A stretch of 29,145 nucleotides of DNA, from contig JAOTVX010000043.1 of assembly GCA_029863175.1 (NCBI GenBank), positions 1-29,145 of the forward strand. The letters are read 5' to 3'. Both the position numbers and the translations under genes were made by a program. Source of the DNA: Betaproteobacteria bacterium. Its GTDB lineage: Bacteria > Pseudomonadota > Gammaproteobacteria > Burkholderiales > SG8-41. How positions within the stretch are numbered: the stretch's first letter is position 1; the number at the start of each line of letters is the position of its first letter. Positions 16,550 through 29,145 of this stretch are shown here, piece after piece. Under the pieces are notes generated by a model. It ran no database searches, had not been told where the DNA came from, and saw only the letters and a list, made by a program, of their open reading frames with translations.

Positions 16550-17344
16550 TCATAGGTCCAGTGATGTGAGCAGCTGCCGTGTTTCCCGCGGCGGCAGCTC
16601 GAGGAACTGACCACGCCGGAGCTGCCGCGGCAGGCTTACCGACCCGAAGCGCACTCGAATTAGACGGCTGACGGCATGCCTCAGCGCTGCGAACATGCGG
16701 CGCACCACACGATTTCGACCTTCGCGTATGACTAGACGGTACCAGTGGTTGGCGCCCTCGCCGCCCGCGTCCAGGATCGAGTCGCACCGTGCTACGCCGT
16801 CGTCAAGGCGAACCCCAGCAACGAGTCGAGCCAGCTCTTCCGCCCTCAGGCGTCCCAGAACGCGCACGGCGTATTCACGCTCCAGCGCGTAGCGGGGATG
16901 CATCATGCGATTGGCGAGCTCGCCCGAGGTAGTCAGGATCAGCAGGCCCGAGGAATTGAAGTCGAGGCGACCGATGGTCAGCCACTTTGCGCCGCGCACC
17001 GGCGGCAGGCGCTCGAACACGCTGGGCCGGCCCGCGGGATCCGCCCGGCTGACGATTTCCCCTTCGGGCTTGTGGTAGAGCAGCACCCGCGGCGGACGCT
17101 GGCGCAAAGGCCGCCGCAGCACCTTGCCCTCGACTTTGATCAAATCGTGCGGCCCGACCCGGGTTCCGATGCCGGCTGCGGCACCGTTCACGCTTACCCG
17201 TCCCGCTCCCATCAGCACCTCCATCTGGCGGCGCGAGCCGAGACCGGCATCTGCAAGAACCTTCTGCAGCTTCTGCGTTCCTGGCGTCGCGCTCCGGGCG
17301 GCCGGATTGGTCACCGGGGGCTTGCCGCCCTTCGAATCAGACAT
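16550..17344 (-). CDS. rluB: 23S rRNA pseudouridine synthase, RluB type
   Basis: Converts a uridine of 23S rRNA (U2605 in E. coli RluB) to pseudouridine. The 264-residue product has an N-terminal S4 RNA-binding domain ([30 protein letters not shown], in part residues 25-54) and the RsuA/RluB catalytic region with [14 protein letters not shown], nucleophile Asp128. [14 protein letters not shown] and the basic segment [14 protein letters not shown] are also family-typical. RluB is chosen over RsuA/RluE by the ending and length, with moderate certainty. Its start overlaps the recR stop by eight bases, so it is probably translated with recR. Confidence 0.88.
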
Positions 17345-17933
17345 CGCGTCGTTCCATGACAGCCTGAGCGAGCGTACCGCTGTCGACGTGTTCGAGCTCG
17401 CCCCCGACCGGCAAACCGCGGGCGATCCGCGTGACCTTCAGCCCGCGCTGCCGCAGCAGCTCGCCGACGTAGTGCGCGGTCGCTTCGCCTTCGACGGTGA
17501 AGTTGGTCGCGAGGATGACCTCCCGCACGACTCCATCGGTCGCCCGTTTCACGAGCCGCTCGAGATGAATTTCTTTCGGGCCGACACCGTCGAGCGGCGA
17601 AAGCGCACCCATCAGCACGAAATACAGGCCCTGGTAGCATTGCGCCTGTTCCATCATGAGGACATCCCCGGGAGTCTCGGCGACACAGAGCTGCGCCGAG
17701 TCACGGCGCGCTGAGCGGCACAACTCGCAGACTGGTTCTTCCGCGTAGCTGTTGCACTTCTCGCAGTTGCGGATCCTCCCAAGGGCGTCGGTCAGCGCGG
17801 CCGCCAGGCGCCCCGCGCCGCGCTGATCACGCTGCAGCAGGTGGTAGGCCATGCGCTGCGCCGACCTCGGGCCAACCCCCGGCAAACAGCGCAAGGCGGA
17901 AATCAGCTCTTCAAGCGATGAAGGTGTCTTCAT
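17337..17933 (-). CDS. recR: Recombination protein RecR
   Basis: Works with RecF and RecO to load RecA on gapped DNA. The 198-residue product has a helix-hairpin-helix ([17 protein letters not shown]), a zinc finger with Cys57, Cys60, Cys69 and Cys72, and a Toprim domain ([26 protein letters not shown] segment; [16 protein letters not shown]). Length is standard. The conserved order dnaX-ybaB-recR is intact, all on the minus strand. The ATG at 17933 has no Shine-Dalgarno sequence; 7-bp repeats (AATGACG) start six bases upstream. Confidence 0.96.
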
Positions 17934-18005: not shown

Positions 18006-18027
18006 GATTAAAACGGTAGTTTTAATC
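18006..18027 (-). terminator. 9-bp hairpin overlapping the ybaB stop codon
   Basis: GATTAAAAC (18006-18014) and GTTTTAATC (18019-18027) pair perfectly with a 4-base loop. On the minus strand the hairpin encodes the last residues (LKLPF) and contains the TAA of ybaB at 18008-18010. No T-tract follows. It resembles the stop-codon hairpin of prmB. Confidence 0.55.
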
Positions 18028-18331
18028 CTGGCGGCAGCGGCAATCCAGCCGTCACGCCAGCCATCTTTTCCTGCACGGTAACTTCCACCCGCCGAGCCGC
18101 GTCGTTGAAGGCTGCGGCGACGAGATCTTCCAGCATCTCCCGATCATCAGCCGGCAGGCGCGGGTCGATGCTGACCCGCCTGACATCATGCTTGCAGGTC
18201 ATCAGCACCTTCACCAGTCCGGACCCGGCCTGCCCCTCCACTTCCATCTCGGCGAGCTGCTCCTGCATGCGTTTCATGTTTTCCTGCATCAGCTGCGCCT
18301 GCTTCATGAGATTCCCGATGCCGCCTTTCAT
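18008..18331 (-). CDS. ybaB: Nucleoid-associated protein YbaB/EbfC family
   Basis: A small DNA-binding dimer encoded between dnaX and recR in most bacteria. The 107-residue product begins [34 protein letters not shown] in part, the usual heptad-rich N-terminal helix, followed by [18 protein letters not shown] and [17 protein letters not shown]. Start ATG at 18331 lies 13 bases after the dnaX stop. The end overlaps a 9-bp hairpin. Confidence 0.95.
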
Positions 18332-18344
18332 GTGTCGCGCTCCT

Positions 18345-19898
18345 TCATTTCGCCGGTTTGACCGAGGACTCGATCACCTGCGCGTCAAAGTTTTCCACCA
18401 GCCCGCGCACGAACGGATCCTGCTCGATCGCCGCAAACGCATCCGCCTGTTGCTGCTGCTGCGCCCGGTCGGCAACCGCCGCTGGCGAACCGGTAGCCGC
18501 CTCGGACAGGGTGATGATCAGCCGCAACCGCTCACCGCAATGGCGCTCCAGCGCCGACTTCAAGCGCTCCTGGTAGGGTCCGTCGAGCAGGTGCTGGTGG
18601 GCCTGTCCGAGCTTCAGCTCGATGCGCCCGGCCGTGCGCCCTGCCAGCTCGCAGTGCTGAGCCAGCATCTTGGCAGCCCCGACGAGCCCGAGCTGATCGA
18701 TCAGTTCCCGCCATTCCGGGTCAGCGCGGTTTTTTTTTGACTCAGGCGCGCGCACCGCGGCCATTGCGGGCGAATCTTGGCCAGAAGCGGCCGCTGGTCT
18801 CGCTTCGTGGCCGTCGCGCGCCGGGGCAAACGCTCGCATCCGCAGCAGCGTCATCGTAAAACCGGCATATTCGTCCGGGGCGAGGCCGAGATCGCTGCGG
18901 CCCTGGAGTGCGATCTGGTAATAGAGCTGCAAATCATCGGGCGCGAACTGTTCGGCCAGCTCAACGAGGACTGCGCTTTCGGGATCCTCCGCTGGCACAG
19001 CGTCGGGAACCCGCTGCAACAGGGCCAACCGGTGCAACAGCGAACCCAGGTCCTGCAGCGCAGCCTCGAACGAGAGGCTGAGGCCCGCCATGCGATCGGC
19101 TTCTGCCAGCAGCCCCGCCGCATCTCCCGCCGCCAGCGCACGCAGGATGGCGTAGAGGTGATCCTGGCCTACGGTCCCGAGCATGGCACGCACCGATTCC
19201 TGCTCGACCACCCCCGCTCCGTACGCGATCGCCTGGTCGAGCAGGCTCAGCGCATCGCGCACGCTGCCCTGCGCCGAGCGCGCCAGCAACGCCAGCGCCG
19301 CCGGCTCGTGACGAATGCCTTCCGCCTCGAGGATATGCTGCAGGCGCTCGCTGATCTGCTGGCGGGGTATGGGCTTGAGGTTGAACTGGAGACAGCGCGA
19401 AAGCACGGTGATCGGGATCTTCTGGGGATCGGTCGTCGCCAGAATGAATTGGACGTGCTGGGGCGGCTCCTCGAGTGTCTTCAGCATGGCGTTGAAGGCT
19501 GAGCGCGACAGCATGTGCACTTCGTCGATGATGTAAACCTTGAAGCGCCCGGCGGTCGGGGCATAAAGGGCGTTTTCGAGCAGCTCCCTCATGTTGTCGA
19601 CTTGCGTATTGGACGCCGCATCGAGCTCGAGCAGGTCGACGAAGCGCCCCGCGTCGATCTCTGTGCAGGCACCGCATTTCCCGCACGGCGCATCGGTCAC
19701 GCCGGTCTCGCAGTTGAGTGCCTTGGCGACGATACGCGCAAGGGTCGTCTTGCCCACTCCGCGCGTGCCGGTCAACAGATACGCATGGTGCAGTCGCTGC
19801 TGCTTCAGCGCATTGGTAAGCGCCCTGACGACGTGCTCCTGCCCTACGAGTTCGGGAAAGGCCTTGGGACGCCACTTGCGGGCGAGAACTTGGGTCAC
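18345..19898 (-). CDS. dnaX: DNA polymerase III subunits tau (and probably gamma)
   Basis: The clamp-loader ATPase that links the replicative polymerases. The 517-residue full-length product is tau. Walker A GTRGVGKT is at residues 44-51, zinc cysteines at 63, 72, 75 and 78 (CGKCGAC), the DEVH-type Walker B in YIIDEVHML, sensor 1 around ATTDPQKIP, and SRC motif LSRCLQF. Domain III ends near residue 360; a linker and the polymerase-binding tail follow. In that linker the gene has nine A in a row (18738-18730); adding one A gives Lys-Pro-Arg and then TGA, so a gamma-like protein of about 392 residues is expected. The start is GTG at 19898 with no Shine-Dalgarno sequence; 7-bp repeats lie directly upstream. 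Confidence 0.96.
18730..18738 (-). other. A9 slippage site in dnaX for a gamma-like product
   Basis: On the coding (minus) strand the codons TCA AAA AAA AAC (Ser387-Lys-Lys-Asn) contain nine consecutive A. With one extra A (transcript slippage) or a -1 ribosomal shift the reading becomes Lys Pro Arg TGA, stopping at once. With one A fewer the frame stops after about ten codons. Thermus dnaX makes gamma from a homopolymeric A9 run and E. coli dnaX from an A-rich slippery site; the site here is at the matching point, in the linker after domain III. Confidence 0.75.
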
Positions 19899-20550: not shown

Positions 20551-20604
20551 TATTCTCCCCCTTACTTCAATGCTGCTGAGACGTTACTCAATTGGAATAA
20601 GGGT

Positions 20605-20700
20605 GGCGAGCCTTACCCCCGGCACTTGCAAAAAATAGCTGTGGCTGCTTCCTTCCGGACCTGACCAGGTTCACTATCCTGCAATGCGGGGAGGCCCGCC
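20605..20700 (-). ncRNA. ffs: Signal recognition particle RNA, small (4.5S) type
   Basis: The RNA core of SRP, which binds Ffh and targets nascent membrane proteins. The minus strand contains CCTGGTCAGGTCCGGAAGG followed by AAGCAGCC, the near-invariant domain IV with its GGAA tetraloop. The ends pair over nine bases: GGCGGGCCT at 20700-20692 with AGGCTCGCC at 20613-20605, including one G-T wobble, which sets a length of 96 bases. A CATAAT on the minus strand at 20723-20718 is a possible -10 box, in which case the primary transcript is slightly longer. No intrinsic terminator follows; the pagL-like start is 54 bases downstream on the same strand. Placement ahead of dnaX is common in proteobacteria. 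Confidence 0.95.
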
Positions 20701-29020: not shown

Positions 29021-29145
29021 ATCGGGATAGGGGCAAGCCTCACGGCTCGACCCCTCCCACACCACCGTGCGTACGGGTCCGTACACGGCGATTCGGCAGG
29101 TTAAGCGGTAGGTAAAACATGGAGTCTCGGTAATCCGAGAGCCGC
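29021..29145 (-). mobile_element. Group II intron, 3' end (domains V-VI), cut by the window edge
   Basis: Read on the minus strand, 29092-29061 is a domain V hairpin: ATCGCCGTG pairs with CACGGTGGT including the G-T wobble of the catalytic triad region, the upper stem TACG/CGTA carries a short loop, and a 2-base CG bulge sits on the 3' side. Domain VI follows as GGGG...CCCC (about 29054-29030). A bulged A at 29028 stands before the final TCCCGAT, so it is seven bases from the inferred 3' end at 29021, the standard branch-point distance. A further short stem lies at 29145-29120. The reverse transcriptase/maturase gene, if any, would be outside the window. Confidence 0.8.

Follow-up and report, generated by a model that had tools for sequence, protein, structure and literature searches.

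In the dnaX gene of Thermus thermophilus, nine A residues in a row (A9) are present on the sense strand in the tau frame, stops of the other frames are located behind the run, and a gamma subunit shorter than tau is predicted (PMC1088944, PMC5009743). In the dnaX gene of E. coli, a shift in the -1 direction is followed by an immediate stop, and gamma is again the shorter product (PMC5009743). According to the same source, as far as its available text goes, the standing of E. coli gamma was settled after considerable controversy. A third arrangement is the two-ORF dnaX of a GeneTack cluster, in which a poly-A stretch lies between the gamma and tau parts and polymerase slippage was proposed; the available sections of that paper also name Neisseria among the users of the AAA_AAA_G pattern (PMC3711429). 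Searches based on disrupted ORFs miss the shifts that give shorter products (PMC4066793, in the part available). The kind of site described here is therefore already known from Thermus A9 slippage, E. coli frameshifting and the two-ORF poly-A dnaX genes. Full-text literature searches, judged by the titles that they gave, brought up no report of A9 dnaX sites recurring in the betaproteobacterial order studied here.

The window is the whole stretch of 29,145 nucleotides that was analysed (contig JAOTVX010000043.1), and its nearest named relatives are metagenome-assembled Betaproteobacteria and Burkholderiales. The dnaX gene occupies 18345..19898 of the minus strand, starts with GTG and encodes the DNA polymerase III subunit tau of 517 amino acids. 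The product scores 705 bits against PRK07994 (cut-off 613) and 433 bits against TIGR02397 (cut-off 250), and Pfam assigns residues 231-356 to domain III and residues 379-513 to the alpha-binding tau domain V. The next gene on the 3' side is ybaB/ebfC (18008..18331, minus strand), and recR lies beyond it (17337..17933, minus strand).

The A9 run, a candidate slippage site identified by sequence and conservation, is located at 18730..18738 of the minus strand and reads A_AAA_AAA_AAC in frame. The original prediction placed nine A residues in the codons TCA AAA AAA AAC at residue 387, and these codons are indeed found at 18740-18729 of the minus strand, where they encode Ser387-Lys-Lys-Asn390. 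It also held that one added A gives Lys-Pro-Arg-TGA. Reading the shifted frame bears this out: the run with one more A gives S-K-K-K-P-R-TGA, that is, two sense codons and then the stop (18723-18721, minus strand). This TGA lies in the -1 frame, which would be reached by an A10 transcript or by a -1 ribosomal shift. The shifted frame ends at residue 392, in agreement with the predicted short form of about 392 residues. The coding part of the putative gamma, stop included, covers 18721..19898 of the minus strand and is common with tau until the run; the predicted protein keeps domains I-III and lacks most of the polymerase-binding domain V. In the +1 frame, corresponding to an A8 or A11 transcript, a TGA is located nine codons past the run (18701..18703, minus strand). 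The run had been assigned to the linker before the polymerase-binding tail. By Pfam it falls where the match to domain V begins, just beyond the linker, which is near the place first assigned.

The window thus has the Thermus-type traits, namely an A9 run within a single tau frame and near stops in both non-zero frames (two codons in -1, nine in +1), this comparison being with the literature description of the Thermus gene and not with its sequence. The two cases differ in that Thermus belongs to a different phylum, in that here the -1 stop follows at a very short distance and is strongly selected whereas the +1 stop is farther away, and in that slippage is a prediction here. With E. coli dnaX, the window shares the corresponding place in the protein, the -1 direction and the immediate stop. 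In contrast, the E. coli site consists of A_AAA_AAG with an upstream Shine-Dalgarno-like element, whereas the window has A9 without such an element, and A_AAA_AAA followed by A_AAA_AAC stands where the E. coli-type A_AAA_AAG heptamer would be. E. coli dnaX also has a downstream stem-loop as a stimulator, according to the available literature text. In the two-ORF dnaX genes tau needs the shift, whereas in the window tau is the unshifted product (PMC3711429, available part).

Conservation of the run was compared among relatives. In the family sample of G001, 63 of 74 genomes have a dnaX match at E <= 1e-100. Exactly nine A residues in codon phase 2 are found in 23 relatives. One gene of the sample, L127, has A7 in phase 2, and another, L130, has A6G in phase 2; the remaining dnaX genes either are without such a run, as many are, or are cut or broken upstream of the run site. 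In L140 (G056), the match to dnaX breaks off near residue 331 and the reading frame closes at 356, ahead of the linker, which may reflect an assembly error. The original prediction had named an AAG codon breaking the run in relatives as the observation that would refute it. This check supports the prediction, with exact A9 runs in 23 relatives; AAG is present in L130, and many other genes are without the motif. AAG makes up 67% of the Lys codons elsewhere in the same dnaX genes. The motif xKK[NK] was looked for in 121 proteins, namely the query together with its 120 top matches, and is present at the site in 118; the other three have SKNN, SKIN and SKKA, and the surrounding linker is unalignable.

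At the order level, 194 genomes have a dnaX match, and the 30 best loci and 60 loci chosen down the list were read. The gene set comprises 221 distinct dnaX genes, which remained from 233 sequences after 12 with a coding sequence identical to another were dropped, and 170 of the 221 have a GC content of at least 55%; counts of genes are not independent of ancestry. In these 170 GC-rich genes, the 75-codon linker stretch (36,958 nt) contains 33 runs of at least eight A residues, and the remaining sequence (234,755 nt) contains none. The linker runs are one A8, 30 A9 and two A10, and three A7 runs are also present. In the genes below 55% GC, ten A8 runs lie outside the linker and two inside, and all six A9/A10 runs lie inside. 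Linker A9 or A10 runs were also seen in other lineages of the order (L017, L160 and L165; L214 and L215; L046, L062 and L230), where they occupy phases 0, 1 and 2 and are all followed within a few codons by a shifted-frame stop.

The stops of the shifted frames were analysed in the GC-rich genes (55% GC or more), as were Shine-Dalgarno-like pairing, folds, Lys-Lys pairs and the distribution of A9 on the tree. A -1 stop is present within three codons of the run in 28 of the 32 GC-rich A9/A10 genes. In 300 rounds of synonymous recoding of these proteins, such genes numbered 8.4 on average and 14 at most. Among A9-less genes, 23 of 132 have the -1 stop at the matching place, and in the A9 genes it occurs at 3 of 119 other places; the run is located 4-6 codons before a conserved Trp in 27 of the 32 genes and farther in five, and the matching place is valid for the 27. 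In the 26 phase-2 A9 genes, the background of T-ending codons ahead of the stop predicts 4.5, a value conditioned on the stop being present. A +1 stop within three codons was found in 6 of the 32 A9/A10 genes and in 5 of the 132 A9-less genes, a weak enrichment. Compared with synonymous recoding, the +1 stop counts are 4 against 3.3 at three codons, and 15 against 10.2 (sd 2.0) at nine codons. Judged by these comparisons, the close -1 stop is under strong selection and the +1 stop is weakly enriched. The A9 run and the out-of-frame stop just behind it look maintained by selection, as far as gene comparison can tell.

The bases of the run are kept more strictly than the amino acids that they encode. 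Among the phase-2 A9 genes, the lysines are preceded by S, P, A, V or L, written as TCA, CCA, GCA, GTA or TTA; these codons account for about 1-10% of the codons of those residues in the same genes. The lysines are followed by AAC, AAG or AAT. These genes were picked for having the run, and a check free of this selection was made on 166 GC-rich linkers, in which 50 of the 54 Lys-Lys codon pairs are part of an A stretch of length seven or longer. Thus, on codon evidence, the nucleotides at the run are conserved beyond the residues. This bears on the idea that selection acts on the encoded peptide, Ser-Lys-Lys-Asn serving for example as a protease site that yields gamma, with no frameshift product. 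The conservation of the motif in nearly all the proteins compared speaks for it, and Caulobacter produces gamma by proteolysis (PMC5009743, available part). However, the flanking residues vary while the bases remain A by way of rare A-ending codons, the Lys-Lys pairs are concentrated in A runs as stated above, and a protease site gives the -1 stop no role. We regard this explanation as very improbable. An even smaller chance is given to a run that arose by chance or mutation and has no function, or that is a phase-variation tract. The dnaX run is the single A9/T9 on both strands of the window (0.08 expected), and at least one A9 appeared in 6 of 100 shuffles of the window, so that one A9 per 29 kb is only mildly unusual and, taken by itself, unremarkable; the question of selection is therefore decided by comparison. 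The run is conserved, and mostly exact in length, across species whose DnaX proteins are 58-77% identical, which argues against an origin by chance. Phase variation would turn off tau, whereas the A9 genes that were read have an open tau frame.

One gene thus very probably makes both the long subunit (tau) and the short subunit (gamma), to judge from the comparisons above, and the remaining question is the route. Our preferred reading, with a probability of roughly two in three (0.68), is that A9 is a programmed slippage site for RNA polymerase of the Thermus type. RNA polymerase would slip on the nine T residues of the template, and a pool of mRNAs differing in the length of the A run would result. 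The mRNAs with A9 (or A12) would be read through to give tau. Those with one extra A would reach the stop two sense codons past the run and give a gamma of 392 amino acids with domains I-III, and those one A short would reach the stop nine codons past the run. The competing route is the one that E. coli dnaX uses, -1 programmed ribosomal frameshifting, in which tRNA-Lys slips on A_AAA_AAA or on the overlapping A_AAA_AAC/G and the ribosome meets the same TGA; we consider this unlikely as the explanation, though much less so than a protease site. Ribosomal shifting is known from sites of this type, with an in-frame A_AAA_AAA followed by A_AAA_AAN. The phase-2 A9 run holds just such an in-frame A_AAA_AAA with an overlapping A_AAA_AAC, A_AAA_AAG or A_AAA_AAT, selection is much stronger for the -1 stop than for the +1 stop, and L127 retains the -1 stop although its run is A7. 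In the same order, the A6G site of L219 (G118) is preceded by a strong Shine-Dalgarno-like element, and this gene is a candidate for E. coli-type frameshifting. Against the ribosomal route, A7 or A6G would suffice for it, yet the run is mostly nine, and other lineages carry the run in other codon phases: their A9 or A10 runs stand in phase 1 or 0, and most have a shifted-frame stop nearby.

The stimulators expected from E. coli were sought around the run. Upstream Shine-Dalgarno-like pairing in the A9 genes has a mean of -3.2 kcal/mol against -3.0 in the control (p 0.26). The duplex energy is -3.0 in the window, equal to the control mean, whereas it is -7.4 in E. coli dnaX and -11.6 in L219 with A6G; no upstream Shine-Dalgarno-like stimulator was detected in the window, and none overall across the A9/A10 genes. 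Individual genes, L150 (-7.0), L223 (-6.8) and L158 (-5.7), show better anti-Shine-Dalgarno pairing than most A9 genes, which would suit the ribosomal route. The downstream fold of the window is no better than that of shuffles, by a test insensitive enough to give the known E. coli stem-loop a z of 0.1. Over the 32 A9/A10 genes, the downstream mean z is -0.52 against -0.16 for 50 nt (p 0.03) and -0.33 against -0.18 for 70 nt (p 0.14); because of the E. coli score, these downstream results say little either way. The 40 nt upstream of the run are folded slightly better than those of A9-less linkers (mean z of -0.61 and -0.18, respectively; p 0.007), but this difference was given no weight, because the make-up of the linker may account for it. 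The fixed length of nine, the absence of a Shine-Dalgarno-like stimulator and the codon phase varying between lineages together favour polymerase slippage over ribosomal frameshifting. A mixture of the two is possible. The sequence, the nucleotide-level conservation of the run, the selection on the -1 stop and the domain boundary are shown here; the production of the short protein, polymerase slippage as its main route, and the gamma:tau ratio are inferred.

Several further observations bear on polymerase slippage. PMC5009743 suggests that Thermus may rely on polymerase slippage on account of its second lysine tRNA, whose pairing with AAG should be tight. A pattern search for tRNA-Lys(CUU) was performed in the 23 A9 genomes, four of which gave no lysine match at all; it was found in 14 of the 19 others and in 4 of 17 A9-less genomes chosen by hand from the family sample (p 0.007, ancestry ignored), a comparison confounded by incomplete assemblies and by ancestry. 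Both UUU and CUU lysine tRNAs were found in G038 (A7), G049 (A6G) and G145, and UUU only in G118, the source of L219, and in G202. The excess of tRNA-Lys(CUU) in A9 genomes fits the second-lysine-tRNA conjecture of PMC5009743. For E. coli RNA polymerase slipping on one gene, insertions exceeded deletions threefold (PMC6260861, in the part available), which is in keeping with the -1 stop being the more strongly selected of the two. T runs slip more than A runs with this enzyme, and slippage on A runs was under detection in a reporter, according to the same text; such weak slippage counts against the polymerase reading. The +1 stop would be expected to matter if A8 or A11 transcripts were common, so that its weak enrichment also counts against polymerase slippage. 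So do the -1 stop that L127 retains with a run of A7, the A6G of L130 and the absence of any run from many relatives.

A9 was counted on both strands of the assemblies of the 23 A9 genomes. In two of them, G060 (3.3 Mb) and G011 (2.8 Mb), the only A9 of the assembly lies inside dnaX. Two matches each were found in G006, G048 and G055, and 3 to 23 in the other 18. G060 has 180 A7 windows and 35 A8 windows, and the decay of these counts leads to an arithmetic estimate of about eight runs of at least nine A residues. With one A9 against about eight expected in G060, and with more A9 runs in most A9 genomes, the avoidance of A9 is clear in G060 and is not general. The further A9 runs in most A9 genomes count against the polymerase slippage reading.

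The history of the run was traced on a FastTree tree built from the residues before the linker, with one short row left out and three cut or broken genes unscored. For the 166 GC-rich genes, the presence of A9 requires at least 12 changes, as opposed to 29.6 on average and no fewer than 25 when labels are shuffled; the presence of at least eight A residues requires at least 18 changes among 217 scored genes. Because the tree is unrooted and has many open deep forks, gains are indistinguishable from losses. In a 49-row clade including the window, the run is absent in a 32-row group, in L004/L097 and in L092. On the tree, L129 (A9) and L130 (A6G) are sisters. As L130 has no Shine-Dalgarno-like element and G049 has tRNA-Lys(CUU), L130 may be a decaying site. 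A tentative and on balance doubtful interpretation is that the device for gamma was repeatedly gained, lost and exchanged in the order, between an A9 run for the polymerase, in varying codon phase, and an A6G site for the ribosome, in step with tRNA-Lys(CUU), and that the polymerase took over where the ribosome slips poorly.

An A9 run and an adjacent -1 stop kept across the family, the run being the sole A9 in two assemblies, are strong comparative evidence that these lineages benefit from retaining a short subunit. The sister lineages without the site are natural controls, and the gene set allows polymerase slippage and ribosomal frameshifting to be compared at one gene.

Two RNA features were also seen in the window. 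A match to a group II intron is located near the window end (29021-29093, minus strand) and scores 40.7, barely over the gathering score of 40. A bacterial small SRP RNA gene (Rfam RF00169, 84 bits) lies directly 5' of dnaX at 20602-20700 of the minus strand.
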